Made by a program: the position numbers and the translations under genes. This document shows positions 12,119 through 64,000 of a stretch of DNA of 64,000 nt, in pieces (position 1 is the stretch's first letter; every line of letters begins with the position of its first letter). The DNA lies in assembly GCF_029227915.1 (NCBI RefSeq), contig NC_079876.1:26693828-26757827 (forward strand), given 5' to 3'. The notes under the pieces are model-generated. The model worked only from the letters and a program-made list of their open reading frames with translations, was not told where the DNA came from and made no database searches. Source of the DNA: Hydractinia symbiolongicarpus (lineage: Eukaryota > Cnidaria > Hydrozoa > Anthoathecata > Hydractiniidae).

Positions 12119-12119
12119 G

Positions 12120-20060: not shown

Positions 20061-20076
20061 CGTTTTATTTATCTTA

Positions 20077-23015: not shown

Positions 23016-23256
23016 GACGCCAAGGTTTTATAATTTTCAACTGCCATATTGAAAGGATCGTAGTGGATACAAGTATATTGAGGGTATTAGTAGTGGTAGT
23101 GTGACAACAATTATGAATATTTATTTATATTAAGTGTGTATTTATGGCAACTTTAAAGTTTAGCTAGCCAGACAACACCAAAGCTTTAATGTTGGCTTTA
23201 ACCTTTCCATTTAGTATACATTTATAATAAACATATTTTGGCTCAACCCAATGTAC

Positions 23257-24575: not shown

Positions 24576-25520
24576 CTCGTTTTCATGTTAGTATGCCTAT
24601 TCCGGCTGTGTATCTTGCGGAATGGAAATGGATATTGAAATAGGTCTATTAAATTAATTTTTATTGTTCTTCGTGGCGTAAAATAATCACATGTTTCCAG
24701 ATCATCGGCTTTTATTGCGTAAACCTTCCGAGCAGCGGCTTTCCAGAAGCTTATTCCCGTAAGAAAAAAGTGTTCTCTTTAAAACTGTAAATAGGAAAAA
24801 CATGACCGAATTTTCATTCATATAGGTGCATATATATATACACACACCTCTTGTGGCTGCGGAGTCCTCGTACCGCAAACCACCTCCTCGCACTAACACC
24901 AACGTTCGATCACCGAATCGTGTTTTTGCCATCTCCGTAATTGCGGCGACGTTTGCTTCTGCTTCCGTTATTGTTATAAACGTAATTCGTTTCTGATTAA
25001 CTGTAAAAAAATGAGTATTTATAATTTATTATTGTGTTAAATTAGAACGTTTAGTATGGAATAATATCAACTTACCGATTTTCTTGTTCTCTCTATCCGC
25101 CAGAACAACTTTTAAAACAGTTCTTCGCAGCCGCACCTACACGTTTACGCGACATCATGGACGAAGATGTATGCGACATTGTTGGCCTTCGAAACTCACC
25201 GATGTCATTGACCATTCATGTCGGTAGGTTTCCAACCCGACTCATGCCCTGACTCCTTCCACTTGGTAATACGTGCCAGAAGGCGACTCCCGAAGGCAAT
25301 CAAACGTCTCATCCAGATTCGGAAATTCTGAGGAATCGAACTCCTCTGTTATGCACACCGATGTAACGTCCAGCTATAATCAACAAGAATGAAATTATCA
25401 TAGTTCTTTGAAACTCTACTAGTCTACAATGGTGTGAATAACGCATACCTTGTAAATCACTGCCAGTCTTTGGACAGATAGTTTCTCTGCAGTGTTCTTT
25501 CTGTGCGAGCCCCGTCACGG
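24576..25520 (-). CDS. Unassigned multi-exon coding-like region, copy 1
   Basis: Several minus-strand segments look like exons. 25000-24848 lies between a TTTTTTTACAG acceptor and a G|GTGTGT donor and encodes QKRITFITITEAEANVAAIT, then EMAKTRFGDRTLVLVRGGGL, RYEDSAATR. The preceding segment, ending at the donor 25076/25075, encodes RRTVLKVVLADRENKKI and joins it in phase 1. A following segment (24784-24576) contains FWKAAARKVYAIKADDLETC in another frame. Upstream segments near 25519-25450 and 25371-25240 encode SVQRLAVIYK and VTSVCITEEFDSSEFPNLDE, GTYYQVEGVR. Phases do not all agree, so the model is incomplete or the gene is decayed. Copy 2 has the same segments with few changes. I do not recognise the family. 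Confidence 0.33.
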
Positions 25521-26285
25521 CTATTGTAAAAAATAAATGATGAATCCATATTTTCTATCGTGTGCAAATTAATTCTGCAACTTACTCATCACCTCCCACT
25601 GGAGGAGTTATATAGGCATGTACTAGGACACACCAAAAAGGGGGTTAATGCAAGGGCTAGACCCTTTTGAAAAAAAAAAGTTTAAACAATCACCTAAATA
25701 TGCTGCAGTTCAGGGGGTCGGCAAAAAAATGCGGGAAACGCAAATCTTATTGCATCACAAATATGATTACGAAATAGTGGTATGCAAGAACTTAACCACC
25801 TGTCATTTTTATTTTTTAAATTTTAAATTTTGATTTTTGATTTTCAATTTAGTTGAAAATCAAATGGCCCTAAGGGTTGCATTTCTTTATACAAAGATTA
25901 CATTATTTACCATTAGCTTCTGAACTACTATATATATTGGCGGATAAGTTAAATTATAAAACCTTCTTAAAAAGCAAATTAAACGGAAAAAGGGACAAAA
26001 CAATAACAAAGAGAAAAATGCATATGACTAGTTGGGCGTATTTTCATGTTACCGCGTGAGTGATCACATGCTTTTTCGTAACTTCTGTAACGTGAGAGAA
26101 GACGTAAGCATGTAGACACTTTATTATTAAAGAAAACGTTTTTATTGTGGCTTTACACAATTCTCCAGTAATGTGGCGCCACTAATAGAAGTGTTATAGG
26201 AGTATAAATTTATTAAACAAAGTATGTGTGTGTGAGCCTTGTATTGCGATTGCAATAAAAATATACTTTGAAACTTTAATTACAG

Positions 26286-26549
26286 CTTTTAAATTACCTA
26301 GTGATTTGCCTTGATTTTCTGGGAAATGGTGCTCTTGATGCTGCAGAGGATGAAATGTTCACATTTAACAAAAAATTGCTTTACTGTTCACTGAAAATAA
26401 AGATAACAATTAAATACAATTGTAATCCTAAAGTATTGAAAGATTGTTTTTCAATGCCAAAAACAAGTTTTGCTCGCCAAAAGAATGTTTTAATCAGCAG
26501 TGGCACACCAGATAATTTGTTGATGTCAATTCCTTTGAAAAAATCTTGA
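26286..26549 (+). other. Possible terminal exon, unassigned, copy 1
   Basis: After TTTAATTACAG the sequence is open: NYLVICLDFLGNGALDAAED, then KVLKDCFSMPKTSFARQK and NLLMSIPLKKS, then TGA. The copy-2 frame is almost identical. The antisense frame is also open, so the coding strand is uncertain. No upstream exon was linked. Confidence 0.22.
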
Positions 26550-28230
26550 AATGATTGATTGTGAGATAACAAAACAGCAAGCTGTAATGATGGAACTAGT
26601 CTCATGACTCTTTTGTTTTTGAATTTTAGAGGTTACACCCTCCAGAGATCTATATTCAGTGCAAGATCTCCCTTTTTACAAGGATAGTCTGCAGAATCAA
26701 AGTAATTGAACTAATGACCCTCTATAGACAATACATCACAAACATCTACTGACAGTTACAAATTCCTATACAACATTAAAAGAAACAAATAAATATAATG
26801 TAAATATAAAACTATAAATAAGAGCAGACAACTACCCATGCGCCAGGACTTGTGAACCTGGCCGTAGCTTTCCACATGTATTACGGGATCCAACACTCAG
26901 CCCTACACAGGTGATTGACGCTTGGGACCAGCCCTATGTTAGGACCAGCCTAAAGTCCACGAAGACCCAAAAAAAATTTCAAAGCCCCTTGCAAAGCTTC
27001 TTATAACAATAACTGTGGGTACATCAGGATTGTTAACCCTGTAGACGAAGTGAGCAAACTTGGCCTCCCTAATGGACCGGGGTTAAAGGTGGGACTGTCA
27101 CACCCAAAGACAAGACAGATTGTCAAACCCCCTTGCTTATCTTCTTTTAATTACTCTGTAAGAGAGTGGGGAGTGAGCAAACTCCTGAATTACGGTAGGC
27201 TGCCAGTGAAAATAACAGACATATATCCGATGAAAAGCTGAAGATGAACTTTTGGAGCATTGACTAAAAACACCTTTCTAAATAGACTTACGCACCAACA
27301 TTGATTAATTATTGAGACGCTGTACTCACCTTGAAAGAAATTGATGCTTCCTGTATCTCACATTTTCGTTTCCAATAAATTAGTTGTTACCCAGTTCCAT
27401 AGTCGCCCGACTTCCGTGTTTTGACTAGAAAAAACCACGGCTAGCTTGTCGATAGATTTTTACAAGTCGTATAAATTTCCGCGTTACTATTTGGTGAGTC
27501 TTTTAGCATGACATCACTTGTTGTGAAAAAAAAGAATACGGTTACTATTATTATTGTCAAGACAGCAGTGAATAATGCGTTTATATTAGCCGATTTAATA
27601 CTTAATATTAAATAATAGAATGCTCGCTTTTCGGCAAAAAGAATGACAATGAACTAAAAAACACAAAACCGTACAAAAGTGTAAATAGGTATACATGTTT
27701 TATGAAACACTGTATGAATAATTCTAAAATTTTTAAATTATTGAAATCGCATTGTTTTATTATTGAAACTTCTCAAGTTTCTCTTAACAAAGCTTAACTG
27801 ACATATGAAATAAAGCAAGAAATACAAAAAAATAGATAAAAGGACATTCTTTTAATGATTTTAATACTTGTTTTTAATTTTTTTGTACAGAAAACAAACA
27901 AATGATTCTAGTTTTATAGAGTTTATAACTGCGGAAATACTAGCTCCTCCCTCAATTTCCTTTTAATACCCATTTGACCCTAAAAACTTTAAAAAAAAAA
28001 AAAAAAAAAAAAAACACCACCAGTTTTACAAAATAACCGGTTATTTAAGCTACCATTTTTGCTAAAAAACCAGAGGAATTCCAATCAGGAAAAATCGCTG
28101 GCCCTCCAACATTCACAGGCATATTTCGTGCTTCATTCGCCAAAGTAGTGATTTATTGTGCGGACACTGAATTAGTAAAGTAAATATAAATTTTACGTAT
28201 TTGTTCCTAACTACTGCTTCTGTCCTTTAG
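26550..28230. other. Non-coding stretch, very similar in both copies
   Basis: No recognisable gene. It contains an A-run at about 27990-28013. Short open frames such as that at 27050-27241 lack domains. The two copies are almost identical here (61145-62823), more so than over the transposon-rich part. Confidence 0.5.
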
Positions 28231-28432
28231 CACGACTTTGGATACGCGCAGATACATGCAAAATGCAATTGTTTTAATAGAAACAAGAGGGGTGGCCCGA
28301 TGTTGCTCTCCCGATGGAGAGCTTTGGTACACGACTTCGATACGTTTAGGACAGTTTAACTGTTTATGCACACCAAGAGGCAGGTACGCTTTGTACAGAT
28401 TAATCAAATGCAACTCAGCCAAGAAAACATAA
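28231..28432 (+). CDS. Cys-rich terminal exon of a possible secreted protein, copy 1
   Basis: The acceptor TGTCCTTTAG at 28221-28230 is followed by an open segment TTLDTRRYMQNAIVLIETRG, VARCCSPDGELWYTTS, RLGQFNCLCTPRGRYALYR, LIKCNSAKKT and TAA. The Cys spacing CC..C.C..C suggests a small disulphide-rich extracellular module. The translation is identical in copy 2. The antisense frame is also open (121 codons, hydrophobic), so strand is not certain. No upstream exon or signal peptide was located. Confidence 0.35.
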
Positions 28433-29084
28433 ATTAAAAGACATGGCAAAGTCCAAGTCAACAAAAAACACAGACTGTAAAGCCTGTCATTAAACAGTAA
28501 TTCAACTTTTGTTAGCAGGCAAAATGATTCCGCAAAAGTTGTAAAATCAATCATGGGCAAATTACAGAGCACCTATCTCATAAGCTATAAAAGTTTGTTT
28601 ATCTATTCCGGTCGGCGTTAGTCTGTCATAACTAAAACGTCCAGCTACAATTTCTAGTTTTCAGGTTCCTATATAACAGTTAAAATATTTTACAGTAATC
28701 GACAGGAGTTGCCATATTTAAACTATATAAAAAATTGGTTGATAGGCAGTTACGTAAGGAAAAGAACCTCGAAGCAGTGTAAAGCTGCGTGATTGATTAA
28801 TTCTTTGACGTAAGTTCAACGGTTGCCTTAGTCCCTATTACGCAGGTGATTTAGTTTGGTTTATATTTTTCATGTATGCGTTTATTCCCTCGTATGGTTT
28901 TTGTATAAATAAATAACAGAACTGCGGTGAAACTATCTAAAATACATAGTATTTACTTAATAATATAAAATATAATGATTATTCATCGCTTCATCAATTC
29001 AACTAAACCACAGTATTATCGAGATATTTTTAAAGAAAAGCCAAAACAGTTATGGTATTCAGTTACTGACTAACTCGAGAAGAA

Positions 29085-30541
29085 ATGATGTTTATATTCC
29101 TTAAACTCTTAGTCGTTGCATTTCTGATAACCCTTGTTGTGGGTGACTTATACACTCCGGACGATGAATTACCTAAAGGAGGCATAACGAAATATCTAAA
29201 AGGAGAGACGGAAGTAAGCTGTCTGTTGCAATGTGAAAGAGATCAGCAATGTGATAACGCCATGTTTAAATCGAAAAATAAACAGATGAGACGTGGAGAT
29301 TGCTGGTTTGTAAAAATGAATGCAACTGATCAGGGAGAAGAAATGCAAATGTTGAAAACAGATGAAGCAATCACCAGTTACAAGAAGGTAAGTGTAGGGA
29401 AAGGTGCCGAGTTTTGTGTAATATTGTATTGGTCTGTGCATTTGGATATATACTTTATATAAAAAAACTTGTTGTTGAAGGCATATATATAATAATATAA
29501 CACTTTAAGTTAAATATATATCGACAAAGGCATTCATGTTATTGGAATATACATATTAAAGTTTTGGCTAAACTTTGTCATTTTTTTGCATATAACCTCA
29601 GTTGATTTCATAAAGCTTTTATTATTTCTAAAAGCAAGCATTTATTACCTTTCCTTTAAATGGGTTAATTTTGATTTTAGGTACTACCTAAATGTCCACA
29701 AGGTAAGTTTCATTCTTCACATAATTATACTGCTAAGATCTACTCAATTTGTAGTCTTCTATGTTGAGGCAGCATATACTGTAAAAGTAATTTATTACAA
29801 TTGTGAAGAAGTTGAATTTTGCACATTTAAGCAAAGACTCAAAATTACACTGGACATAACAGTTTAAGATGTTTGCTTCTTTCTTGTTGACTGATCAGAT
29901 CTTCGACACACCTAAACAGAGAATAATATATTTAAATATCTGTGAAAAATATGTTAAAAAGTTTACAATACACTGTTAAAAAGTTTGTTTCATCATAAGT
30001 CGCTTCCGTATAAGCGATACTGAAAAATTTAGTCGATATATGATATATGTTAAATAATGGAATAATGGTAATGTACTTTTTAGACGAGTGGACTTTATTA
30101 AAACGCAATGTCTGCTTTGGAGCACGTCCCAAAGAATACGGGGAATTTAAAGTACAGTATGATGCAGTTATAAAAAGCATAAAATTGGTCCATGTTGGAG
30201 GAATTGGTGTAAAATGCGTTGATTACAGACCAGCGACAAAATGGGGTTGTAGAGTCAACGAAATTCCTCCTTTTGGCGAGGAGAATATTGCAGTTGTCAT
30301 TACAGATAAGCAAAATAAATTACTTTATCCTGATACAGCATATCACAAGGGTGCAGGTTTCTTTTTTCTCCCCGGATACAACTCCACCTCTGCCTACTTG
30401 ATTTTACCTGGACCAAGCGAAATTATTCATAAAGGTCAAGAATTGAGATTGCATTTTAGTGAAGATTTGTATGAACTCGACGCCTCGGATAACAGTGGCG
30501 AATCTTGCGCAGATATTTATGCAAAATTGTGTGCAACCTGA
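29085..30541 (+). CDS. Secreted PAN-like protein with cnidarian-type C-terminal domain, three exons
   Basis: Exons 29085-29387 (101 codons, phase 0), 29681-29702 (a 22-nt microexon) and 30084-30541; 260 aa. Residues 1-21 (FIFLKLLVVAFLITLVVG) form a signal peptide, with cleavage probably before DLYTP. Residues about 33-100 have the PAN/apple pattern: VSCLLQCERDQQCDNAMF and GDCWFVKMN. The microexon adds VLPKCPQ. Exon 3 carries a domain with WTLLKRNVCFGARPKEYGEF, SIKLVHVGGIGVKC, IAVVITDKQNKLLYP, GPSEIIHKGQELRLHFSEDL and ESCADIYAKLC, resembling a widespread secreted family of cnidarian extracellular-matrix-type proteins. Six or more Cys suggest disulphides. All junctions are canonical and in phase, so it is probably a working host gene. 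Confidence 0.8.

Positions 30542-30844: not shown

Positions 30845-30845
<1 letters not shown>

Positions 30846-30880
<35 letters not shown>
30846..30880. repeat. (ATT)n microsatellite at the left edge of the novel element
   Basis: About eleven ATT units. A longer (TTA)n tract sits at 39267-39371, on the other side of the recombinase-helicase element. This could mark an insertion into a microsatellite, or be coincidence. Confidence 0.9.
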
Positions 30881-30882
<2 letters not shown>

Positions 30883-31303
30883 GCGTATGAAATTATAATG
30901 GTCCGTGATTCTATGTGCGATTATCTTACACCCTAAACACATTAAATACTTCACATGTTCCAATTTTTTAAAAAAGAACCATTTTTAAGGAACTTGGTGT
31001 TCTTTAACAACTTATTAAAACATTGTTATAAAAGCGGAATGTATTGTTCTATTGTTACTCACAAGACAAGAACGTGTCGTTCCCATAGGGAATTTGATGG
31101 AATTTATGTGACGGTATATATCGTTCCACTCTATTTGTTCCGTTGAATTCTTTTATATATCATAACGATAATATATGCGAAATGATTATCTTGAGGAATA
31201 GTTATTTAATTATGAATACTCTGCAGTCTAATTTATATTGTGCCACTTGAAATAATTCCGTTTTCGCTGCTACCTTAACTCTGCTATGGAGAGCGTCCTT
31301 CAT

Positions 31304-31313
31304 TATAAAAAGG
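31304..31313 (+). promoter_or_regulatory. TATA box of the tyrosine recombinase gene
   Basis: TATAAAAAGG lies 58 bp upstream of a clean donor (AAG|GTAAGT at 31371), which pairs with the acceptor TTTCTAG ending at 31505. The transcript would have a short spliced 5' UTR with the ATG at 31526, 20 bases into exon 2. Confidence 0.5.
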
Positions 31314-31525
31314 AATTGTTTTAATGAGAAGTTTCTCAACTAATACTTTGTATACGAAGTAAAGTATAAGGTAAGTTGTTCAAACTTTAAATTTATAGTT
31401 AATAGGATTCTTTTTTTATTCAAATGAATTCTTTTTTTTATCCTACTTTCTATGCTTTGTTAAAAACTAATATTGTTATAAACTTTCTATAAATTTTGTT
31501 TCTAGAGAACTTTAAAGAAATCGGA

Positions 31526-33172
31526 ATGACAAAACGAGTCTTGCAAAAGCCTGCGTGGAAAGAGGCATTGGGAGCCTCAATGAGATCGAAAAGGCTTAAG
31601 TTAATGCCTGATAAAGATAACCGCTTTTGTTGTCCTGTGGCTGATTGTGACAGCGAGTCGTATGGAAGTAAAAGAGGGTGTAGAAAACATGTCTATAACC
31701 GTCATGGATGGTTTTATTATTTCGATAAAAGACCGAATATCGACGAAGTACTTCCCCACTTCAGTACGAGAAATCGCATAAAAGATCCCCAAAGAAAGCG
31801 CGCCTCCACATTTTCAATGCCGTCTTTTGCTAAAACATGTAATTTGGCAGTTGCATTTAGGACATGGTTAAAAAGTCCAGGTGGTGGTGGTAAAGATCAT
31901 TCTCAGGCCGATCAAATAACTTGTAAAGTTTTAAAGTATGCCAAATATTGCTGCGAGGATTCTCCTTCGGTATGGGAAGTACCATTCCCTGTTATCGACT
32001 ACTGTGTTGGCTCTATTAATATGCTTTCTGATTTCGTAGATTTTTTGAGAGACCAATGGAAGGTTGGCTTCTCAGGAATAATTGGCTACATGAATGCTAT
32101 TGGGCACATGCTTGATTACAGACGAAGCACAGGTACGACTGAAAAAAATTTGTCGGTATTTGTTGCTGCAGAGATTTATTTGCACCGTGTTAAGAAATTC
32201 CTCCTTCGTAAAATGAAAGCTGAATGGAAGTGTATCTTAAGTGTTGAATATCTAAACAGTATAGACTGTTGGGCGACACTATATGATTTACAAAAGGTGA
32301 TACCATACCATAGTGAAAAATATAAACAAATTGTGTTAAATGCTAAAAACGCAAGTGCATGTGTCGCAGCACACGATTTATCATTTTCGACTTCCTTCAT
32401 AGTAGCTGTATTATTTTTAATGGTGAAGGCTTCAAGACCCATGACGTATCAAACTCTTACAGTAACAATGATTAAAGGCGTGAAAGAGGATGGTTTTATA
32501 GATCAGAATGTCTTTAAAACTGCGGAGAAATACGGATTTGACTCTCTTTATTTTTCCATAGATGTACTCACACTAATAAACGAATACATTGACAATGTAC
32601 GACGAAGATTGAACCCCACCAACGATTATCTACTAGTGTGTCGAAATGGTAAGCAGTTGACGCGTATTTCGGACGTATTCGGTAGAATTGTTTATCAAGC
32701 AATTGGTAAGTATATAAATCCTACACGATATAGGCAAATCATCGAAACCGAAAGTGTTGCACACTTAGAAACAAAAGAACAAGCAATTCTTTCTCAAGAT
32801 CAAAAACACACGTCGCAGGTAGCTAAAGTTCATTACCAGAAGACTGAATCGCGCAATATAGCTGCAAAAGCCAGGTTATGTATGGATAAATTACGAGATC
32901 AAACAACGTGTACTTTAACTGTAAGCGAAATCAATAGTAACACCAAAAATGTGAAAACGTCTGGAAGTACTTTGGAACACGAAACACCTGTTCAAACGAG
33001 ACAGAAAAAAGTTAGTTTTAGTGCCATGGAGGACAAGTTTTTACAAGCTGGGCTACAAAAATATGGCAATGCAAAATGGACTTCCATTCTCGCAGATCCC
33101 AACTACTCCTTTCATTGTAGCCGTAAAGCTAGTACATTGGCGGTTAGAGCGAAGACAAAACAATTTATATAA
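31526..33172 (+). CDS. Tyrosine recombinase with C2H2 finger and C-terminal Myb-like domain
   Basis: 548 aa in one exon; ATG chosen because it is the first after the acceptor at 31505. Residues 36-60 form a C2H2 finger (C36, C41, H55, H60). About 100-290 is a helical core-binding-like region. The catalytic domain follows: R304 (KASRPMTYQTL), R401 (YINPTRYRQIIE, with Asn where HxxR has His), H428 and Y437 in LSQDQKHTSQVAKVHYQK, where the H-to-Y spacing of nine matches phage-type integrases. Residues 494-548 are a Myb/SANT-like domain (FSAMEDKFLQAGLQKYG, AKWTSILADP), like telomere-repeat-binding Myb domains. The closest known class is Crypton-type transposases; fusion to a Myb domain and linkage to an SF3 helicase are unusual. 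Expected role: site-specific excision and integration, with Myb and finger giving DNA specificity. No stop or frameshift. Confidence 0.78.
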   Translation: MTKRVLQKPAWKEALGASMRSKRLKLMPDKDNRFCCPVADCDSESYGSKRGCRKHVYNRHGWFYYFDKRPNIDEVLPHFSTRNRIKDPQRKRASTFSMPSFAKTCNLAVAFRTWLKSPGGGGKDHSQADQITCKVLKYAKYCCEDSPSVWEVPFPVIDYCVGSINMLSDFVDFLRDQWKVGFSGIIGYMNAIGHMLDYRRSTGTTEKNLSVFVAAEIYLHRVKKFLLRKMKAEWKCILSVEYLNSIDCWATLYDLQKVIPYHSEKYKQIVLNAKNASACVAAHDLSFSTSFIVAVLFLMVKASRPMTYQTLTVTMIKGVKEDGFIDQNVFKTAEKYGFDSLYFSIDVLTLINEYIDNVRRRLNPTNDYLLVCRNGKQLTRISDVFGRIVYQAIGKYINPTRYRQIIETESVAHLETKEQAILSQDQKHTSQVAKVHYQKTESRNIAAKARLCMDKLRDQTTCTLTVSEINSNTKNVKTSGSTLEHETPVQTRQKKVSFSAMEDKFLQAGLQKYGNAKWTSILADPNYSFHCSRKASTLAVRAKTKQFI

Positions 33173-33210
33173 GTTTAAATTGTATTTATAATAAAAATAA
33201 CTTTGTAAAT

Positions 33211-33549
33211 TTACAAAGATTTTTGAAAACCAGAATATTCAAATAGTCTTTTAACTTTGTTACAGTCAAAACCGGCGTACACATAAAGGCTTTTTTTCCT
33301 CTTTCGATTTGGCCAATAATCTGGTGTATTAAGTACCCTCGTGTGTGAAGGCGGTTCGCAAAAACTTGGTTCTCCCTTCAAAGCCGCTATCGGTATAGTT
33401 AGGAAAACTTCATCATCTGATAAGCAAACAATATTTTTTTCCACGGAAATTGCCAGCGTTGAACAGGAATGCGAGAACGGTAAAACCTCCTTAGATGCTG
33501 AGCATTCGTTATCCGAAACGTTTACCACAACTGCCTCTTCATTCACCAT
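33211..33549 (-). CDS. Small element protein with SUMO-interaction-like motif
   Basis: 112 aa from the ATG at 33549 (MVNEEAVVVNVSDNECSAS); the frame is open a little further upstream without an ATG. Contains EKNIVCLSDDEVF, a hydrophobic core followed by acidic residues in the form of a SUMO-interaction motif, and a basic stretch WPNRKRKKSLYVY that could be a nuclear localisation signal. Ends GFQKSL. It is convergent with the recombinase gene (38 bp between stops) and lies beside array 1. The helicase protein has similar motifs at its C-terminus, which argues that this is a real gene of the same element. No catalytic domain. It might be the 3' exon of a longer gene. Confidence 0.5.
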   Translation of the reverse strand: MVNEEAVVVNVSDNECSASKEVLPFSHSCSTLAISVEKNIVCLSDDEVFLTIPIAALKGEPSFCEPPSHTRVLNTPDYWPNRKRKKSLYVYAGFDCNKVKRLFEYSGFQKSL

Positions 33550-33671
33550 TTTAGCGTACACATAAGCGTCCACACAGTTTAGGTGAAACTTACACGCTGT
33601 AAGCCTTTAAGTATGCAAATAATGGCGCAAATGCGACATTCATTAAACGCACACTCATCCCCATTCCTACT

Positions 33672-34866
33672 TAAAATGACTAAAGTGATTCTTGTAACAC
33701 CTTGTAACGCATGGACATGCTGATTGTAACGCCTTGTAACACGTTGTAACGCTTTGTAACCTATTTCCATGCAAAAATGACTGTGAAATTTTTGGAAATG
33801 GCTAGAGTGATTCTTGTAACGCCTTGTAACGCATGGACGTGCTGATTGTAACGCCTTGTAACACGTTGTAACGCTTTGTAACCTATTTCCATGAAAAAAT
33901 GACTGTGAAATTTTTGGAAATGGCTAGAGTGATTCTTGTAACGCCTTGTAACGCATGGACGTGCTGATTGTAACGCCTTGTAACACGTTGTAACGCTTTG
34001 TAACCTATTTCCATGAAAAAATGACTGTGAAATTTTTGGAAATGGCTAGAGTGATTCTTGTAACGCCTTGTCACGCATGGACGTGCTGATTGTAACGCCT
34101 TGTAACACGTTGTAACGCTTTGTAACCTATTTCCATGAGAAAATGACTGTGAAATTTTTGGAAATGGCTAGAGTGATTCTTGTAACGCCTTGTAACGCAT
34201 GGACGTGCTGATTGTAACGCCTTGTAACACGTTGTAACGCTTTGTAACCTATTTCCATGAAAAAATGACTGTGAAATTTTTGGAAATGGCTAGAGTGATT
34301 CTTGTAACGCCTTGTAACGCATGGACGTGCTGATTGTAACGCCTTGTAACACGTTGTAACGCTTTGTAACCTATTTCCATGAAAAAATGACTGTGAAATT
34401 TTTGGAAATGGCTAGAGTGATTCTTGTAACGCCTTGTCACGCATGGACGTGCTGATTGTAACGCCTTGTAACACGTTGTAACGCTTTGTAACCTATTTCC
34501 ATGAAAAAATGACTGTGAAATTTTTGGAAATGGCTAGAGTGATTCTTGTAACGCCTTGTAACGCATGGACGTGCTGATTGTAACGCCTTGTAACACGTTG
34601 TAACGCTTTGTAACCTATTTCCATGAAAAAATGACTGTGAAATTTTTGGAAATGGCTAGAGTGATTCTTGTAACGCCTTGTAACGCATGGACATGCTGAT
34701 TGTAACGCCTTGTAACACGTTGTAACGCTTTGTAACCTATTTCCATGAAAAAATGACTGTGAAATTTTTGGAAATGGCTAGATTGATTCTTGTAACGCCT
34801 GGTAACGCATGGACATGCTGATTGTAACGCCTTGTAACACGTTGTAACGCTTTGTAACCTATTTCT
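33672..34866. repeat. Iteron array 1: about ten 122-bp units
   Basis: Exact 122-bp period: the marker CTGTGAAATT recurs at 33781, 33903, 34025, 34147, 34269, 34391, 34513, 34635 and 34757, with a diverged first unit from 33672. Each unit has six TTGTAAC heptamers. Read on the minus strand as GTTACAA they are spaced 10, 10, 10, 22 and 10 bp. The rest of the unit is AT-rich (AAAATGACTGTG, TTTTTGGAAATGG). Units differ by only a few point changes. The array lies between the small gene and the 3' end of the helicase gene. Proposed role: multimeric binding site or replication origin. Confidence 0.9.
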
Positions 34867-34952
34867 GTAGAGAAAACCGCTTTTCGCATGTCACTTTAGA
34901 AAAGGAGTATGTGGTGGGATATGAGGGAAGGAAAACGCAAAAAAGTTTTTTT

Positions 34953-37900
34953 TTAATTGTCTTCTTCGTCCGAACTAATGCAGATAACATCACAATCGAG
35001 AGAAGTGGTTGAATTATCTGCGGAAAATAGCTCTAATTTTACTGAAGAAATTTCAGGAACACTTTCATCATCTGACACGAGGTCTATAAAAGCAGTACTG
35101 TTATTTGCTGGACAAAACGGCATATATTCTTGCTTAACAGTGGAAACAGGTTTTGTCGACTTAGCATTGATTTCATGTTCTTCTGTTTCTTCTTCTTCCC
35201 TATGACCTTCCTCCTCTTCGTTTGTTTCCTCTTCTTCTTCCTCGTTCTCTTCGCGGTCGTGGCTACTACCTTCTCCTTCGTCTTCGTCTTGCTCAATTAG
35301 TTGTGCCCAATCAGGGTAGAGCTCCTTCATTTCTTTCGTCGGGAAGCAATCGCGGCAGGAGTTTGTAGCAAGCAACCACGTGTCGTAGAACGTGTCACTA
35401 CCCTGCCAGTTGATCCTTTTACGGCGTTTGAATGCTACCAAGGTCTCATCGTTATTAATTAATGGGCAGATTTCCTCCCATGCCCCAGCGGCTATCTCGT
35501 ACATTTTGCGCATATATTCAGCACTGTGTAACTTGTTTTCTATGTCAAACAGTTCATGATCAAAGTTAAGCGCATGGTACAAAATGCCATCCCTATCGTC
35601 GGCCGCAATAATGGCATAGTCGATAGCCTCTTGCGGAACTGCATTCTCAATCTGAACTCGTGTGCTTAGACAACTGCTAGATGCTTCCAATGTTTGCTCT
35701 TCGTCCAAGAAGACCGACGGATCGCAATCAACGTCGTTGTACACAGCGCCTACTTGATTTTTCTTCGCAACATTGGTTTCGCTGGTGAAAAGCGAGATGT
35801 CTTTCAACTGGCTGGCAACGTACACAAATATTTCCATGCAGTGCATTCTCATCCACTCTACGGGAAAAAAGTCATTACTTATTTTTATGCATATTGATTT
35901 ACACCATTGTTATCATTTATTCTCATGAGATACTTACTTGTTATGCTATTGTCCTTCACTCGAAGTGTCTTAGTTTCGAAAACTTCAAGACGACGCAGGA
36001 TAGCCTCACCATCTACACCATTTCCGAAGTCCGGCATTATATTAGTTGTTATAAAAAAACCCGAATTGTATTGAAAACGGGCCGGTTCTTTGTGTTTTTG
36101 CGGGATCATAACCAAGCCGCCTATAAGAGAAAGTGGTATCCCATCTGCACATTGCCACATTTTATTCAAAGTAAATGTTCATGTACTGCATCGACATCGA
36201 CTTACCTTGCAATATTCTTTTTGCATCTTCACAACATAGACTGTCGCTAGTCCATTCATCCATAAATACGACTTGTGTATTTCTATTTATCAGGTGGCCT
36301 GAGAATCGACCATCCCGAACCACGCCAGCAATGTACATTTCTGGAATAATGCCTAAAAGGACAAATGTATGTCAGTAAGTGCCGTCTAAAAGTCAGAAGT
36401 TTTCACGAACTTTATTTAATTACCTTGAAATGGAGCAAACCAACTAGTCTTTCCACTATCAGGAGGACCTACCAGCAACAATTTCTTTTCTTTCATGGGA
36501 TACTGACCGGCGAGCAAAATTTGGTACCATTTTTGATAAAAACGCAACCGCACATTTCTATCTGGGAAACTATTTTCGACACCTACAAATGTAGTTCAGT
36601 GCACCTTTTTTAGAACTACGTTACAACAAGTTACAATACGTTACAACACGTTAAAAGAAAAAGAGCCAACATTTTCACTGACAATGCGTTACAACAAGTT
36701 ACAATACGTTACATCACGTTACAACTACCACCTTGATATGTTACAACACGTTAAAAGATAAAAAAAAACATTTTCTTCATTGACAATGCGTTACAACAAG
36801 TTACAATACGTTACAACACGTTACAACTACCACCTTGATATGTTACAACGCGTTAAAAGATAAAAAAAAACATTTTCTTCACTGACAATGCGTTACAACA
36901 AGTTACAATACGTTACAACACGTTACAACTACCACCTTGATATGTTACAACGCGTTAAAAGATAAAAAAAAACATTTTCTTCACTGACAATGCGTTACAA
37001 CAAGTTACAATACGTTACAACACGTTACAACTACCACCTTGATATGTTACAACGCGTTAAAAGATAAAAAAAAACATTTTTTTTACTGACAATGCGTTAC
37101 AACAAGTTACAATACGTTACAACACGTTACAACTACCACCTTGATATGTTACAACGCGTTAAAAGATAAAAAAAAACATTTTCTTCACTGACAATGCGTT
37201 ACAACAAGTTACAATACGTTACAACACGTTACAACTACCACCTTGATATGGTACAACGCGTTAAAAGATAAAAAAAAAACATTTTTTTCACTGACAATGC
37301 GTTACAACAAGTTACAATACGTTACAACACGTTACAACTACCACCTTGATATGGTACAACGCGTTAAAAGATAAAAAAAAAACATTTTTTTTACTGACAA
37401 TGCGTTACAACAAGTTACAATACGTTACAACACGTTACAACTACCACCTTGATATGTTACAACGCGTTAAAAGATAAAAAAAAACATTTTCTTCACTGAC
37501 AATGCGTTACAACAAGTTACAATACGTTACAACACGTTACAACTACCACCTTGATATGTTACAACGCGTTAAAAGATAAAAAAAACATTTTCTTCACTGA
37601 CAATGCGTTACAACAAGTTACAATACGTTACAACACGTTACAACTACCACCTTGATATGTTACAACGCGTTAAAAGATAAAAAAAAACATTTTTTTCACT
37701 GACAATGCGTTACAACAAGTTACAATACGTTACAACACGTTACAACTACCACCTTGATATGTTACAACGCGTTAAAAGATAAAAAAAAACATTTTCTTAA
37801 CGCGTTAAAAGAAAAGTAAAAACAATTACCTTCTATAAATGGCTTTGGTTCGGGATTTTTTCCCTCACGATGAAAGTACCGTACGAATGCTCGGGGAGAT

Positions 37901-38990
37901 CCCTTTAAATTTGGCTTGACATCGAAACATTTTTTGGCGATGTTATAACAAACTCCATTTGGCAAGCATTCAATGTAATTGTAATCCAGAGTTATTTGAT
38001 CAATTATTTGACACTCGCCGTCCGACAGCAAAAATACCAACTCTCGTAAATTTGGCGTAATTTCGTTGGCGATTGCTTTGTTTTTCAACGAGCGATAGAG
38101 ATAGCTTTTCACCGAACAACAGTAAACGTATGTGTATCTGCTTTCTCCTATTTTTTTGTATACACCTCCATTGCACAGTCCAAAGCTATTCCTCTCCATC
38201 ATCCTTCGAACTATATCCACGGATTGACAAAGTTTGTTAGTTGGCTTAACGGGAATAGTTACTTCTGTGCCTATGCGTGTAACAATGTAAAAACATGTTT
38301 TAACTTCTACAAAAAACTTAGTCTTATTATTGGAGAAGTAAGTAAATTTGTTCGTGGCAACTTACCTTCCGATTTATCAATTACTTTTAAATCAAGCGAT
38401 GTAAATCTGATTTCGGATAAACCACGAATTACATCTTGATATACCTCTTTATCAATATTTTTTGTTAGAATTAACTGACAGGGTTTCATCGAGTACTGTT
38501 CGCTTTCCATTACAGCAACGTGGTCAAGTTGAACACCTTCATCTCTAGCTGCACTCCTAATCATTGTGCGATGGGATATCTCAACTATCCGTTTTGCTTC
38601 TTCCCTATTGTGGTCTTTCAAGACTTGGTATAACGATCCTGAGAATGCTTGCAATGCACTGGTTTTGCCTACAAATATCAAATGTGGCGTAAAATATTCG
38701 AAAAACATTGACAGTATTTCAAGTACTAAAAGGTTCAAGTATTTACCTCTTGTCTGTATAGCATTGCACGTTGTTAAATTCAACCCGGCTTGCATAAAAG
38801 ACTTCGACAAATTTGTTTCAAATTGACTTAAGGTACAGTTTGGCAAGTCGCACGCGATCCAGAAAGAAATGCCAGGAAATGTTTCAGGCGCATTTGCGCC
38901 GTTTCTGTTATCACCTTCACTGCTAGAGTCGGCTCCTTCTTCTTCCTCCCCTTCATTCCTCATCGACTTTCTCTTACGAGGTCTGGCCAT
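34953..38990 (-). CDS. Superfamily 3 helicase replication protein, seven exons
   Basis: Exons (minus): 38990-38747, 38668-38366, 38270-37830, 36582-36424, 36352-36206, 36144-35938, 35857-34953. Every intron is GT-AG and phase 1, giving 801 aa without a stop. An in-frame upstream ATG at 39206 would add 72 residues. N-terminus: basic MARPRKRKSMRN plus an acidic stretch. Residues 82-329: no recognised fold, possibly origin binding; no HUH motif. SF3 core: Walker A GPPDSGKTS (368-376), Walker B VVFMDEW (410-416), motif C FFITTN (461-466), then AILRRLEVF (Arg 482/483). This is the order seen in parvovirus NS1 and papillomavirus E1 helicases. The C-terminus has a strongly acidic tract (about 690-729) and two SUMO-interaction-like motifs, FIDLVSDDE (757-765) and VICISSDEE (791-799). 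Intron 3 contains iteron array 2. Likely a hexameric origin-unwinding helicase. Confidence 0.82.
36618..37800. repeat. Iteron array 2: about eleven 102-bp units inside helicase intron 3
   Basis: The marker ACAATGCGTT recurs at 36681, 36783, 36885, 36987, 37089 and on to about 37700, a 102-bp period (101-103). On the plus strand each unit has GTTACAA four times at 10-bp spacing, then after 22 bp GTTACAA again, then at 10 bp GTTAAAA, a degenerate sixth site. The remainder is an A-rich run followed by CATTTTCTTCACTGAC. The layout is that of array 1 in opposite chromosomal orientation, although the sequence between heptamers differs. It lies wholly within the 1247-nt intron 37829-36583. Confidence 0.9.
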
Positions 38991-39262
38991 ATAGGTAATA
39001 CAAGAAAAAAAACAGGATACTTGTTCGTTGCTAAGCAATATGTTCTCCATCTGCATTCTCTTGCCCCAAATGACCTCGCGGGCATCAACATCACTTCCCC
39101 ACATCGCACGAACGGCTACTACCTGATATTTTCTTATTACCGGTTGGACGATGCATGCCTTCAGGGCGCGTTTCAAAACTTCACTTCGCAGTTGCCTGTT
39201 AGCCATGTTCTGCTAAGTAATACAAACGAATGCTGTAGCGGAACAAAAATAATCTCCTATGG

Positions 39263-39371
<109 letters not shown>

Positions 39372-42365
39372 TTACGGATTTGAACGTTTTGCTCGAATAT
39401 CTAAACATTTTACGATCCCACATTGTTTATTTCGTTTCTATATTTTACCCGTGAGTTTCCCAAAACAATGACTCAAACGAACCAATTTTGTTTTCCTATA
39501 TCATTACGCTGGATAGTTAATAAAAACTGTTCCAGGTCAAACCTTGTTTCAGGGAATAGTTTTATTTTGTCTTTTGCAGTGTTTGATTATCAAATCCTAG
39601 CTTATTTATAATTTTTGGATGCTGTATTTAAAAAATTGTTAAATTTAGCACCATTGCTTTGCAATGAAATATATAAATAATGTATTGTTAGCTGATCTTG
39701 TTTTTAACTTGTTTCTACTTCTTGTTTTGATCTGTGTTCATCTACTTTAACTTAATTTACCCAATTTTCACAGTTAAGGCAACGCTATTAGCACCAGGGG
39801 ATATTTTACCAATATCTAATGTCATTTTTTGTTTACGTGAAACTTAGGTTTCTTGCTGTCCTTTTAAGCTTGTCGTGTGGGTAAAGTTTCCTTGTCTGGT
39901 ATCCCTTTGTTATTAAGTTAAAAAAATTTATTGCTGATCCTTGTATTATTTAATAGTAGCGCGTTTTCTATAATTTTAAACAGGGATGCAAATAACACAC
40001 ATATTGAAGTGACTTTACTAGCATAAACATCTTTTTAATCAAGTAAACTGACACCATTTTTCTGCATTTAACAATATTTTTATCATTATTGCAATGATTT
40101 TTTTTCACGCCTTTTGCACATTAATCCCGCAGTTTAAACTGAGATTAACAACTTTACCCATAGACTATTATGTTAATTTTCGTTACTATGTTCTCTAAAT
40201 ACACTTTTCTTTCTCTAAATAATAATTTCTATTTGCCGAAGATTAAAATTTGCTCCCTGCATTGTTGAAGTTATTCTCCCTTAGGTCCTGAAAATAAATC
40301 GTAAACGATCGTTTTCGAACGATCGCTTTTCGAGTGTCTTGTTGCAATTTCCTCCCTGTTTTTTATTTTCTTTTTGTTTGCGGATTGTCCTTTAAGACCA
40401 AATATTTATCGTCCTTTGCGACTGCTTTTGACTTAAAATGATTATTTTATTGTAGATACGTGTATATGTTATTAGCTTAGAAATATTTTTTCACTTGATA
40501 ATGAACACTGTTACAAAAAACTTCGTGCACTATGAAATTGTTAAATAAAGTGTATTGGTGTTAATAAATTACCACATCATAAATTTTTAATAAAGAGAAA
40601 CATATTCACGAAATGTTCATATTAAAATTAAAAAAAGGAAGAAATTTTGTTAAAAACGAATGCTATTGTAAACGAGCCTTTACAGATTCCATAGACGAAT
40701 ATGATTACTCTGAAAATGCATAAAACATAAATAAAGAGGACACCAAAGTGCAACATATGTCATTCCCTTAGAGTAAAAAATGTTTTTATCAGTCCTAAAA
40801 ATATGCATGTACCTTACAGAACCTCCCCATCCATGTTCAATTCGTGTTGTGTTTTCAGAATTTTTAAAATGTTTTTCATCCTACGAATTTATGTATATTG
40901 AATGGTGAACAAATTTCTGGTTTCAATAAGTCGAAACATTGAAAATAACAATATGAAAAGTAACCGCGATGCATATTTATTACTTTTTATATTTAGTGGG
41001 AAAAGTGTAATGCATGTATAATTACTTCATTATAATTTAATAACCATGTGAGGTATGACAAATACCTTGTTGGTTTTTTTTCCATAAACTTGTTATCCAA
41101 TCCTCTTTAAACTTCTAGCAATAAGATTTGCTGCAAGCTAAATCCATCATTATTGATACTCCAACGCAATGGATAGTATATAGTGTGTTCAAATTATGCA
41201 CAAAAAACCATTAAATCTGTTTTCCATTCATATTAACTTTCGATTTTCAAAACAATTTGTTTTGGAATTTGTAGACGCATCCTTAAATATCTTCTGATAC
41301 CACAAAAATTAATATTTTCTTTTGTTTTACAAATGATTGGGTGTCTCTTTTAGTTGAGTGCATACGTCACAATTTTTAACAAATTTTACCTAAAAAGACC
41401 GGTTCGGAAAACATTTCACCAACTAAAGCGACCCTCTTGTAGGAATATGTTACAAATAAAATAATAATAAAAATAAATACAATTCACACAATACAGTGCA
41501 TACCAAACAGATAAATATAAAACATATCTCATATATTAATTCCCTTGCGTGAGTAAAACTGTGAGTCCACAAACACGGAAATCACGGGTCACTTTCTCAT
41601 GACGTGGCTGTACGCTAAAATTTAACTAAAAAAGTTAGGGATGTACTTCATAGAAATTGCACATAAGGTGTAAATGTATAACCCGCAGCTAATAACGATA
41701 TAAATATATACACCCTTATGCCAAAAAATGAGCATACATATAGGTATCGCTACATATGACAAAGCATAGGGATTGTTAAACGAAGTTCCTAGCATAAAAC
41801 GGAAATTGTGTTTACGAAAAAGATGGCTGTTCTTTTTGAGTATTCTCTACTCTTTCCTTCAAATTAATCTTTAAAAAAACATTTGAATAAGAGCATGGTT
41901 TTATAAATTAATCATAAGGTTTCTGTAAGGTTTTTATGTTTTTTTTCAGTTTTAACATTATTAATGCGAGACATGTTTGTTAGGTAGCATCATAAAATGC
42001 CAACCACTAACAACAACTAGCTAGCTAGCTAGGAATTTATATATGTGTAGACATGTTCTTTATACTTAGCTAAGTCTCCAGTTTATGTTTAAGTGACCAG
42101 CTATTAGCTGCTGTAGCTAGCTAATGTTAGCTTTAAACTAAAGATTCCCAGTAGCTACCTACCTAGCTAGCTAACCTGTGAGTTTTATGTTGCTTTTACA
42201 TGTAGTTAGCTAACTGAAGTTATCTTTGTGATCTTTGCTAGGATATTCCTAACTTATTTGACTTGACCTTTTAAGTTTAAATTAGAAGATATAACAAGCC
42301 ACAACACCTTTTAAGAAATTATTACATAATATTTAAGGATATTCTTTTTTATGCAAATATATATA
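39372..42365. other. Long non-coding stretch between the novel element and duplication copy 2
   Basis: Three kb of AT-rich sequence without credible open frames, RNA genes or transposon domains. Runs of GCTAGCTAGCT occur near 42017-42029, 42115 and 42165, as at several other places in the window. Confidence 0.5.
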
Positions 42366-43098: not shown

Positions 43099-43479
43099 GT
43101 GTGGTAATAAATAGTCGCGATTCTTTTCTATGTGTTGTAGTTCCTTACTTTCATTTCGCAGATCTATTTCTTCTACCTCTCCCACATTAGCAATGAATTC
43201 ACTTTTCTTTTATTTGACACTTTGTCCAGAAGTGTTGGTCACCGGTATGGATATCGATTTAATAACATTATCAAATTTAAGGTTACATTTTTCCACGTCT
43301 TCATGAAGAAATACATCATCGTTCTTAATAATATACGATTTCTCATTTTGTAAACGCTTGACATTAAACATTTTTCTTTTTACATATTTGGTTGTGATGT
43401 CCGGTATAATTGTTGACTTAGCAATTTTCACGTACGCTGTTGTCGAAGAAACTGATTCTTTATAACATTTAATTGTTGG
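43099..43479 (-). pseudogene. Ty3/gypsy protease-RT linker fragment, copy 2
   Basis: Minus strand KIAKSTIIPDITTKYVKRK and FDNVIKSISIPVTNTSGQ as in copy 1. RT, RNase H and integrase are absent because the duplication begins here. Confidence 0.75.
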
Positions 43480-45035
43480 TCAGCCCCGTCAGGTAGCTGA
43501 TCTTTCATTTCAGTTTGCCTTTTTGTGTTCGTGTGTTATTTTGTCCGTCCCTAGTCAGCTTCCCGACCACCTTATTACCGCCTACTTAATCCAAAAGCCG
43601 TTTTCCACTCATCAACCAATCAGGAGGCACGAATCATGAGTTTCCAGAACCAAACGACATTTTAAAAGAAATAAACTGATCTGATCAGATCTGAAATACA
43701 GCTAAAATATAAATTAAAACAAATATATTTCCGGTTTTGGCTGTCTGACTGGTAGTTACGTCTCCGTACACTGAAGATCTCACTGGTTTTATTGATCGTT
43801 GACCATTTTCAAGGCAAGTTATTCTACTTATCTATTTATTGTTTTATAGCTAGCTAGCTATTAGGTAACTGCCGTTAATGCATTTAAGTATTCCCAAACC
43901 TCAATAGGTTTCTAATTTTTGCCAGTCGCACTGCATAGCTTATTAGCTACCTAGCTAATTAATTTCTGTCAAAAATTGGGAAATTGGCCTTTGGCGAAAA
44001 TAATTCCATTTTTAAGATTTTAAAGTTTTGCATTTGTGATTATTTTATTTTATTTTGTGAAAATGTTTTCAAAGTGTCGATTCGACGTTAGGGGGGTGGG
44101 CTTGGTTCTTTTCGACGTTAATATCCATGGTAGAACAAAAATATCGCTTTGGGCCCAGATACAGGAGAGATATATTTGATAAAACGATCGTATTTTACAG
44201 TGCCCGGATCTTGTCTGTTTACAAACGGAAGAGAGGGGGACCTTCCATGTAGCATCAAACAAACTACATTTGGTCAGAATGTACTTCCGTCATCATGATG
44301 GCAGAGCGTACTGCGATTGAAACATCATGACTAAACCTACCTCTTTTGCAACTGCCACGGCCTGATACTACTGAAAGGGGGTGGGGGTTTTCAAAGTAAC
44401 GTCGAATCAACGCTTAGTTTGGCAATGTGAGCATATGGATGCCTACCCTAAACGAAGATGGCAAATTTTTTTGCACGCCCACCACATTTTCATTATGCAT
44501 AAATGACACGAACTGAACATTTTATTGATGTCGGCTTTAGCAGTTAGGACAGTACGTCATTAACTAGCTAAATTTCAGTTAATGTTGCCATAGATGTAAA
44601 AATTGCATAATATTGCACAATATATATATATATTCACGCTGAAATAACTGGGCATGTTTCCTGCAATTACAGCAGGAATAAATTGTGGAGGATTTTGCAA
44701 CTTTAGAATCTAAAAGTTACCGATCCGCAAAAATTAATTTCTGTCAAAAATTTAAAAATTGGCCTTTGGCGAAAATAATTCCATTTTTAAGATTTTAAAT
44801 ATTATTTGCCAATTTCGAGTTTTTGTCCCAATTTACAAAAAGACTTTCAAAGATGGTGGATATTTCAAAAACACAGTTTTTTATAGCTGATTTAAAATTT
44901 TGGTACTGGACCGTAGAATTTATCGGTAAAAATACATTATCAGCCATCAGACTTTTTGTCTGCCATATTCAAAATAATGAAGTTCTTGGTGAAAATCTGC
45001 TTCGCTCCTAATGCAATGTATAATGCGTGTAAATC

Positions 45036-45163
45036 ATATTGAAGAAGAACTACTACACTAACATACTGCCAAGCAGTGAGCAGGATTCGATCCGCGGTCC
45101 GCAGAACTGGGAGCCGCTTGGCAGTATGTTAGCGATGAACAAAGTAGTTCTTCTTCAATACAT
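45036..45163. repeat. Strong foldback with tRNA T-arm-like core
   Basis: ATTGAAGAAGAACTAC and CTAACATACTGCCAAGC on the left are perfectly complementary to GCTTGGCAGTATGTTAG and GTAGTTCTTCTTCAAT on the right. The central loop contains GGATTCGATCC, like a tRNA T-arm/B box, but no full cloverleaf can be drawn. Copy 1 keeps only the right arm (near 13100), so this belongs to an insertion or rearrangement in copy 2. Confidence 0.65.
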
Positions 45164-45722
45164 TTTTTTCTTTAATACGGTCTTGATATATTTAGTAGCA
45201 TTATCCTCATAATTTAATTTATGGGGCATTAATTTGGATTGTGAAATCGAAAATGGAGCTTTTGATGGTCCCTAATTTTCGCAAATTTTCCTTCTTGCAA
45301 AAGTTTCTTCCCTTTGTTTACAAAATATTGTTTAATTTTTTTTTCTTCTTTTCTTATAGGTCAAGCAAAAGAACAACGGTTTACTTGGTTACTTGTTTAC
45401 ACGCGTTTACTTTGTTACTATTTAATCTCTTGTCAGACTTGGACACTACCTTGATCTTACAATATACTTTTACATATATATAACTTATAGAATAGATTTT
45501 TTTTACAATAAAAAATAATATATATAAAAAAAATATAGCTAGCTATATAATTTTACTGTTCTACTTTGTTGTATTTTTACGATGTAGGCATATCGCATTG
45601 CTATTGGTACTTTCGGTTTAACCACTCAACTCAGTTCAGAACTATACTGTTTCTGAAGAAATTTTCTCGCTCTATTTAAAGCCAGCTCCATTCTGTTCAA
45701 TTTTTGTGTAAATATTACTTTG

Positions 45723-46100
45723 GCTTTTCTAATGGCTAGTGACGTTTAGTCCAACCCCGGGCCTGTCAACCGAGATAAAATAGTAATGGGCTCATTTCAT
45801 CAAGGTCATTCTAGATTTGGAGAATCAGCGGGTAGCCAATGCGTGTGCAATGCTTTGTGGGCCATCTGTTACCCTTCTATTGCGTCTGTGCGTTACTCGA
45901 CTGAATGGGATCTTGATCGTATTTTTACACTAGGGAATGATCTTTACGTCAGCCTAGGTTACACCAGTCAATATCTTGCTTTAGACGAACTGCCCAATTC
46001 AATTACAACTGAAAACGGGAATATTCAAATTGAAAAGTCAGATTCCTATTTATTTGAACTTTCGAGAAATAGTACTTCCTCCTTTCTCCGTGCCCAGTAA
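45723..46100 (+). pseudogene. 2A-like peptide plus cysteine protease remnant, copy 2
   Basis: As in copy 1 with the same TAG inside the 2A motif (45747-45749, MASDV-stop-SNPGP), so that lesion predates the duplication. Keeps the segment STEWDLDRIFTLGNDLY that copy 1 lost, matching the protease pattern better. Ends at the TAA at 46098-46100. Confidence 0.52.
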
Positions 46101-46311
46101 TATGTCAATTATCTCACGCTATCTCGCAGTGAAACCAAGCATAAGAAGTGAGACGATATTTGAACTAATATCGTTATTCAGAGGAAAGTGGCTAAATTTT
46201 ACTATCTTAAAGCGGAAGAAAATTTTCTTTTTTACTTTCGTGGATAAACAATTCTCACTCACACTTTTAAAGTTCTCAGTCGCGCTGACCTCAAGGCCTA
46301 AGGGCCTCTAG

Positions 46312-46504
46312 TTAACTTTTGATTAGTGTTTTTAATTGTATACGTAATAGTTTTATTAAGAGCGTCAGGTGTAAATGTTGAAATTCTTTCTTCGGTTTTC
46401 ATTCCAAATGTATTTGTTGTTACGCTTTTTGAAACCAAAACCGGTTCATAATCAATGTTGAAAACGTTATTTTCTTCATCAATCAATCCCAACTGTAAAG
46501 CTTC
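46312..46504 (-). pseudogene. Ty3/gypsy protease C-terminal fragment, copy 2
   Basis: Reads ALQLGLIDEENNVFNIDYEP, then TTNTFGMKTEERISTF, as in copy 1, ending at the left Harbinger terminal repeat. Confidence 0.6.
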
Positions 46505-46796
46505 GTTCTCACTATGGGCTAAGGATGAGCTAACCATAGTGCGCATGATGCGCTAAGACCTTAGCCCATAGTGTGAACGTAAAAGTACCTGCTTATCTCT
46601 TCGCTAAACTCTTCGTTAGCTCATCGTTAGCCGATTTTTTGAAATCAAAATTTTTTGATATTTTTTTTCGGCTAACAGTGAGATAAGCTCACTTTCAGCG
46701 ATCTTCAAGGGAGGCCGACATAAATCGTGCTCAAAGCGATTTATTTTTTTACAAATAGTAATATGCTTTGTTGTAAAAGGTCATTTCAAAACTAAA

Positions 46797-47655: not shown

Positions 47656-47741
47656 GATATTTTTTCTTGTAAATATTACACTAGGCATCAAATGAAACAG
47701 TGTACATGTAATATATAACCGTTTTTCATAATATATAAAAA

Positions 47742-63980: not shown

Positions 63981-64000
63981 GTAAGTGTAGGGAAAGGTGC

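Follow-up and report, generated by a model that had tools for sequence, protein, structure and literature searches.

An approximately 8.4-kb mobile element in the genome of the hydrozoan Hydractinia symbiolongicarpus carries two arrays of the heptamer GTTACAA, which differ in unit length, intervening sequence and orientation and share one internal spacing, 10-10-10-22-10. The element lies in a window of 64,000 nucleotides (assembly GCF_029227915.1, contig NC_079876.1, positions 26,693,828 to 26,757,827), which is the whole stretch of DNA analyzed here, and most of the element is occupied by the genes for a predicted tyrosine recombinase and an E1-like superfamily 3 (SF3) helicase, a third open reading frame (ORF), and the arrays themselves (Table 1). 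We tentatively favor the view that the arrays are iteron-type initiation sites, where the predicted helicase would assemble and copy the element in a presumed circular form.

The heptamer is strongly enriched: 132 copies were counted in the window, relative to 17.0 (standard deviation 4.1) in dinucleotide shuffles, none of 100 of which reached 132, and within the element no exact copy was found outside the two arrays. As an initial annotation of this DNA had stated, each minus-strand unit of array 1 places its heptamers at offsets 0, 10, 20, 30, 52 and 62, with a constant step of 122 bp between its 10 units. The approximately 60 sites proposed for this array resolve into 57 exact sites and three single-mismatch sites, each of them the fifth in its unit. 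The 11 full units of array 2, which runs in the opposite direction as first described, repeat these offsets at steps of 101-103 bp, and the degenerate sixth site, GTTAAAA, is present in 11 of 11; the annotated 102-bp repeat did not hold for the first unit, which is short (first step 68, not 102) and sets the first heptamer at 36620. The 55 sites annotated for this array agree with its number of exact sites (52 in full units and three in the short one), with the remaining deviations being GGTACAA at the fifth site of two units and GTTACAT at the third site of one. The base preceding an exact heptamer is C in 70 of 112 cases.

Array 1 adjoins the helicase stop codon (34953) on one side and the third ORF on the other, and array 2 is located almost wholly within one helicase intron. 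Consistent with the earlier statement that the sequence between heptamers differs, the spacers of the two arrays, placed in register, match at 10 of 27 letters (shuffle mean 6.8, P = 0.10), seven of these falling in the 15-bp spacer, and the alignment of the inter-unit linkers does not exceed that of shuffles (P = 0.12). Because neither spacers nor linkers align, a recent common origin of both arrays is not seen; the two clusters may still share an old one.

Three GTTACAA heptamers at 10-bp steps occur 899 times in the 480.9-Mb genome, while a control pattern read backward occurs 0 times. Outside Hydractinia, two scans placed the three-site pattern at 115 public viral or prokaryotic loci (36, with two on one contig, plus 79), none of which has more than four of the six sites exact at these offsets. 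In the second scan, the pattern appears as inverted pairs, approximately 270-290 bp apart, on nine JAKSNS contigs from a single Paludibacteraceae assembly (L042, L047, L054, L057, L064, L073, L088, L094 and L096); these are probably an unrelated multicopy bacterial element.

Copies of the element were located with the recombinase, which yielded at least 52 genomic matches; at least 21 are full length or nearly so, and 16 of these contain no stop. The initial annotation had made its proposal depend on whether other copies keep the spacing, and they do: it is present in 168 of 181 parsed array 1 clusters (26 copies) and in 55 of 60 array 2 clusters (5 copies). Left out of the 26 were L149, L150, L152, L161, L166, L173, L176 and L181, as repeats of a copy, and L178, L179 and L180 (no array or relic). 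The sole recurrent variant is a gap of 33 in place of 22, found in one array 1 cluster each of L153, L154, L157, L162 and L163. It arises through an 11-bp duplication, equivalent to one helical turn, and so preserves the helical phasing that had been proposed for the sites, although all five clusters may stem from one event. Three array 2 clusters were parsed as 10-10-10-28-10; we take them to be a mis-parsed short edge unit, as 28 plus 10 gives 38, which is how far GTTAAAA stands from the unit that follows. The remaining off-rule clusters are damaged, cut by the end of the locus, or edge units.

Unit number varies between copies, from 1 to 10 in array 1 and from 1 to 21 in array 2. In the ten copies for which both edges of array 1 are visible, the numbers (with the identity of the recombinase DNA) are 10 in the window, 10 in L146 (100%), 8 in L147 (99.9%), 6 in L156 (99.9%), 4 in L155 (99.9%), 8 in L165 (99.5%), 4 in L168 (98.9%), 7 in L169 (98.3%), 2 in L177 (96.2%) and 1 in L175 (92.8%). 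Where one edge was seen, a 95.2% copy has 2 units and a 96.4% copy, contrary to the trend, at least 8. Full units of array 2 number 11, 11, 12 and 21, with one in the 92.8% copy. Two readings of this trend in array size can be offered: (i) growth in the younger lineage, or (ii) contraction in dead copies.

The diverged copy C7:19365730, whose recombinase DNA is 92.8% identical over 1454 of 1647 bases, retains one six-site cluster at each of the two array places. Its array 1 cluster has two heptamer and two spacer changes, and in its array 2 cluster the first site is changed and site 5 has a 1-bp deletion. The older copies C3:18265614 and C2:19590044 were compared in the same way (alignments of 150 bases or less dropped), and their match to the element within the fetched stretches ends before array 2; both places are therefore visible in one diverged copy only.

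The helicase gene is split into blocks on the minus strand, at 39206-38364, 38271-37828, 36583-36422, 36353-36189, 36127-35936, and from 35855 to the stop at 34953, with the last helicase ORF at 34953-35852. The NCBI model P0121, which derives from another, nearly identical copy, breaks its match at 37828 and resumes at 36583, reading PFIEG directly into VENSF. Because the coding match breaks at this point and P0121 reads straight across, we place array 2 within a single intron, which it fills. P0121 departs from the helicase frame soon after this intron, and a further short intron, which it reads through, may lie inside 39206-38364. Helicase relatives are present in Clytia and Dendronephthya; that of Clytia matches 39197-38355, 38262-37765, 36583-36422 and 36353-35337, the fourth of these matches being broken by large gaps.

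Four SF3 motifs occur in order in the window exons (GPPDSGKT, VFMDEW, QKHKE and FFITTN, known as the Walker A, Walker B, KH hairpin and TTN motifs) and, with small changes, in the relatives P0123, P0124 and P0126. When a profile of three helicase relatives was compared with solved structures, the best was replication protein E1 (1tue), which we take to be the papillomavirus protein; the match is weak (E 0.45), with the four motifs aligned. The predicted model is of low confidence where a hexameric AAA+ fold would lie (predicted local distance difference test score under 50). For the N-terminal part (approximately residues 28-245 of P0123), a mixed alpha/beta fold is modeled, at a confidence between fair and good, and its matches are ferredoxin-like but not decisive. 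Other searches gave little. Foldseek returned nothing for the helicase model at E 0.001, its low-ranking matches leaving Rep and origin-binding folds possible; sequence searches of the PDB found no relevant match for three single helicase exons and none for P0123 alone; and no Pfam family exceeded the cut-off for the helicase pieces and relatives, the weakest lead being DUF5906 at E 0.055. PHROGs yielded weak matches only (best, residues 401-534 of P0126 to a DNA primase family, E 0.0064), no relative of P0123 was found in phages, and viral contigs contained no confirmed relative of the recombinase alone, recombinase alignment A1 or helicase alignment A3.

The predicted recombinase is Cys/His-rich toward its N terminus and ends in a TRF-like Myb domain at its C terminus. 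It has 669 relatives at E 0.001 or better, and among the matches listed the best named one is the H. symbiolongicarpus protein P0002. In an alignment of the window protein with 18 relatives, drawn from the best 120 of the 669, residues R304, R401, H428, H436 and Y437, to which we ourselves tentatively assign the catalytic role, are invariant in 19 of 19 sequences, and the Myb domain is likewise present in all 19. Foldseek alone found no match for the recombinase model at E 0.001. The modeled core resembles the Xer, integron, Cre and lambda integrases, in keeping with a tyrosine-recombinase catalytic core, and the modeled C terminus resembles the Myb domains of TRF1 and TRF2 (51-52 residues, 1.1-1.6 A). 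A relative of the helicase N terminus, P0122, and a 67% relative of the recombinase, P0003, are both listed with one 24,956-base contig, so the helicase and recombinase probably travel together.

The third ORF is stop-free in 14 of 15 copies examined, in three of these as two pieces owing to frame breaks, and has three stops in the diverged C7 copy. Its product contains VVNVSD and IVCLSD, and that of the last helicase ORF IDLVSDD and VICISS, which we take to be SUMO-interaction-like motifs. No capsid or packaging ATPase was recognized when six element ORFs were compared with Pfam, none scoring above the cut-off and no capsid appearing among the weak matches; a capsid too diverged for Pfam is possible.

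The ends of the element have the form (ATT)n-TTATATA-GCG on the left and GG-TTATATA-(TTA)n on the right. In the window, an ATT run at 30845-30877 is followed by ATATAGCG, and on the other side CTCCTATGG-TTATATA-TTATT leads into an ATT run at 39269-39370. These two are the only ATT or AAT runs of five or more in the window. Three other copies were compared, fully or partly, with the window (alignments of 300 bases or less dropped): two align from 30845 or 30851 to 39374, from ATT tract to ATT tract, and then stop, and the third, L148, which is cut on one side by the fetched stretch, likewise ends at 39374. Direct reading of the right end covered the window, L146 and L147; in L148 it was seen through the alignment. 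The left end is visible in 18 non-tandem copies, of which 17 are inserted in (ATT)n (the exception is L168) and 17 have an exact left core (L171 deviates). The right end of the L168 copy was not found in the L182 stretch, and the stretch beside C7:18135570 (L183) gave no element match.

Five copies, in three clusters on C4, C9 and C10, begin directly after the right end of another copy, with the junction ...CTCCTATGG-TTATATA-GCGTATG... and no ATT between; it is exact in four of the five, and L164 has one base changed. Head-to-tail copies number four at C4:15236474-15262441, two at C9:4054759-4065345 and two at C10:7529825-7540152. Such end-to-end junctions fit the product expected from end joining in a circular intermediate, the circle itself being presumed from sequence. 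The tandem copies fit equally a circle inserted where the site was already occupied and a multimeric circle inserted as a whole.

Table 1. Features of the mobile element in the window.
Feature	Position	Strand	Basis or remarks
Left terminal core TTATATA	30876..30882	+	Preceded by (ATT)n
Mobile element between the two terminal cores, ~8.4 kb	30883..39262		Copy alignments; base-by-base reading of both ends
Predicted tyrosine recombinase, 548 aa	31526..33172	+	ORF, relatives, predicted fold
Third ORF, 120 aa	33211..33573	minus	Two SUMO-interaction-like motifs
Array 1	33674-34865	minus	10 units of 122 bp, six phased GTTACAA each; sites 33692-34858
E1-like SF3 helicase gene, intron-split	34953..39206	minus	Block matches to P0121, P0123, P0124; motifs
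Helicase intron holding array 2	36584..37828 (approximate ends)	minus	Break in P0121 match
Array 2	36620-37798	plus	Short unit and 11 full units of ~102 bp; five GTTACAA and sixth GTTAAAA
Right terminal core TTATATA	39263..39269	+	(TTA)n after core

The surroundings of the element include a segmental duplication of 95-98% identity (comparison within the window, pieces over 800 bases), in which 24053-29407 corresponds to 58671-64000, 19082-23030 to 54358-58260, and pieces of 11739-16400 to 43099-48545; the element sits between the left and right parts. An imperfect tandem repeat of approximately 128-249 bp is found at 5310-5907, and a similar repeat was seen by eye beside the L168 copy (L182). 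Broken ORFs at 8941-11328 (minus) resemble by eye what we take to be a retroelement polyprotein (integrase, reverse-transcriptase-like).

The arrays have the layout of an iteron-type origin, namely directly repeated, phased sites adjoining an initiator-type gene. The use of one geometry at two places with different spacers, the tolerance of a one-turn insertion, the proximity to the helicase gene and the absence of sites from the ends together speak for a DNA-binding complex of several subunits that belongs to the element itself. We envisage that the recombinase would join the element ends at the TTATATA core to yield a circle, which would later reinsert into (ATT)n tracts. On this circle, the complex could be seated by four sites that share a helix face and, two turns farther on, a second group of two, and tandem units would raise the dose of sites. 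As the reader of GTTACAA, the helicase, through its predicted ferredoxin-like N-terminal domain, appears about an even prospect; the recombinase Myb domain, in a role like that of the E2 loader, is a credible second candidate, and a host protein is improbable. A bolder formulation, which we regard as somewhat doubtful, is that the transposon is a disguised plasmid, a recombinase-made circle copied from iterons ruled by spacing rather than sequence, in which two six-site clusters, one of them in the intron of its own initiator, serve a multi-subunit helicase and have had their dose raised from one to as many as 21 units.

Two results qualify this reading. Between units, heptamer letters are less variable than spacer letters in array 1 (8/1554 and 15/1036), but in array 2 heptamers (14/2310) are no less variable than spacers (8/1540). 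Further, all the DNA copies read belong to one family, so the conservation of spacing partly reflects shared ancestry and is not independent evidence.

Of the alternatives, control of transcription is unlikely, yet it accommodates several observations. Here the arrays would be enhancers or silencers through which the recombinase Myb domain, or a host Myb protein, sets expression of the helicase gene and ORF. GTTA, contained in GTTACAA, is the core of Myb-type sites, and the frequent C before the heptamer, the Myb domain in every aligned recombinase, and the positions of array 2 in an intron and array 1 between two genes are all compatible with such a role; by itself, however, it leaves unexplained why the 22-bp gap has the same place in both clusters and why these are oppositely oriented. 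Rather improbable, in our estimation, is a function in partition, with the arrays tethering the circle to host chromosomes through a Myb or host reader, as does the family of repeats in Epstein-Barr virus oriP. Long arrays (up to 10 and 21 units) in two separate clusters and SUMO-interaction-like motifs in two element proteins would suit a tether, but the one or two units of some older copies would be few for that purpose, and no segregation protein was recognized.

The arrays might also be neutral tandem repeats, in which one six-site stretch was duplicated long ago, its spacers drifted, and slippage expanded the units without function. The differing unit number of near-identical copies, the array 2 heptamers that vary as much as their spacers, and the 7 of 15 matches in the 15-bp spacer would all be expected in that case. 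Against it, heptamers and distances agree between arrays while the other letters mostly do not, and five distances, together with nearly all of 42 letters, would not be expected to survive drift; moreover, the two 15-bp spacers of the old copy are, by eye, no closer to each other, and in array 1 the heptamers are the less variable. We judge this account to have little probability. A role as accessory recombination sites that fold the element ends together, like lambda integrase arm-type sites, is very improbable, although the predicted tyrosine recombinase does bring an additional DNA-binding domain: exact heptamers are confined to the arrays, which stand off from the left end by 2.8 kb and from the right by 1.5 kb, and a set of over 100 sites far exceeds any arm set that we know of.

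To our knowledge, how eukaryotic tyrosine-recombinase DNA transposons gain copies is not settled. An element that couples a recombinase, an E1-like helicase and phased arrays offers a testable answer, that such elements replicate as circles and then reinsert. The natural copies, with 1 to 21 units and a gap of 22 or 33, form a series for separating phase from dose, and the arrays are a ready binding substrate. Among open-licence papers, we found none combining Crypton, tyrosine recombinase, helicase and Myb, none combining tyrosine recombinase, SF3 helicase, eukaryotic and transposable element, and nothing visibly relevant to GTTACAA among the matches listed.

We compared the element with (i) other integrating eukaryotic elements and (ii) replicons with clustered initiator sites. 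The Crypton survey describes elements with a tyrosine recombinase, no inverted repeats and, in several groups, short direct end repeats, 4-6 bp in those published with repeats, for which a circular intermediate is proposed, eukaryotic tyrosine-recombinase transposons having been proposed to move as circles (Kojima and Jurka 2011, PMC3212892). The present element likewise has a recombinase gene and a short direct repeat, the 7-bp TTATATA, at both ends; it differs from Cryptons in its SF3 helicase and third ORF, its C-terminal Myb domain, its phased arrays and the (ATT)n setting of its 7-bp core, and the word "helicase" does not occur in the main text of that paper (PMC3212892). Animal Cryptons (groups A and I) are described there as having no C-terminal domain, and no terminal repeats were found in them (PMC3212892); with both a C-terminal Myb domain and a terminal core, the element is set apart by that published description, and we do not file it with them. 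Polinton-like viruses can also combine a tyrosine recombinase with an SF3 helicase in an integrating eukaryotic element, but those that do carry capsid proteins and a packaging ATPase, according to one source (PMC4642659). In the element, no capsid gene was recognized.

Papillomavirus E1/E2 origins contain arrays of short initiator or loader sites, and the element shares with them E1-type helicase motifs and arrays of short sites; it differs in having no recognized capsid gene, a predicted integration by recombinase, another site and spacing, and only a weak match to E1 (E 0.45). E1-type Rep genes are described, in a further source, from circular viruses, some of them from sea anemone data (PMC11071296). 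Epstein-Barr virus oriP offers a likeness in its two separate site clusters for one protein on a circular replicon (PMC2654434). Unlike oriP, the element has its arrays within and behind a helicase gene. EBNA1, moreover, is not a helicase, and the sites of oriP differ from the GTTACAA arrays in size and spacing. Bacterial iteron plasmids have directly repeated, phased sites, variable in number, beside an initiator gene; the element departs from them in its animal host, the intron location of an array, and an SF3 helicase where those plasmids have a bacterial Rep protein. Its movement would resemble that of a Crypton and its replication that of papillomavirus E1 or an iteron plasmid, with a full fit to neither, and we class it as a novel variant among the tyrosine-recombinase DNA transposons.

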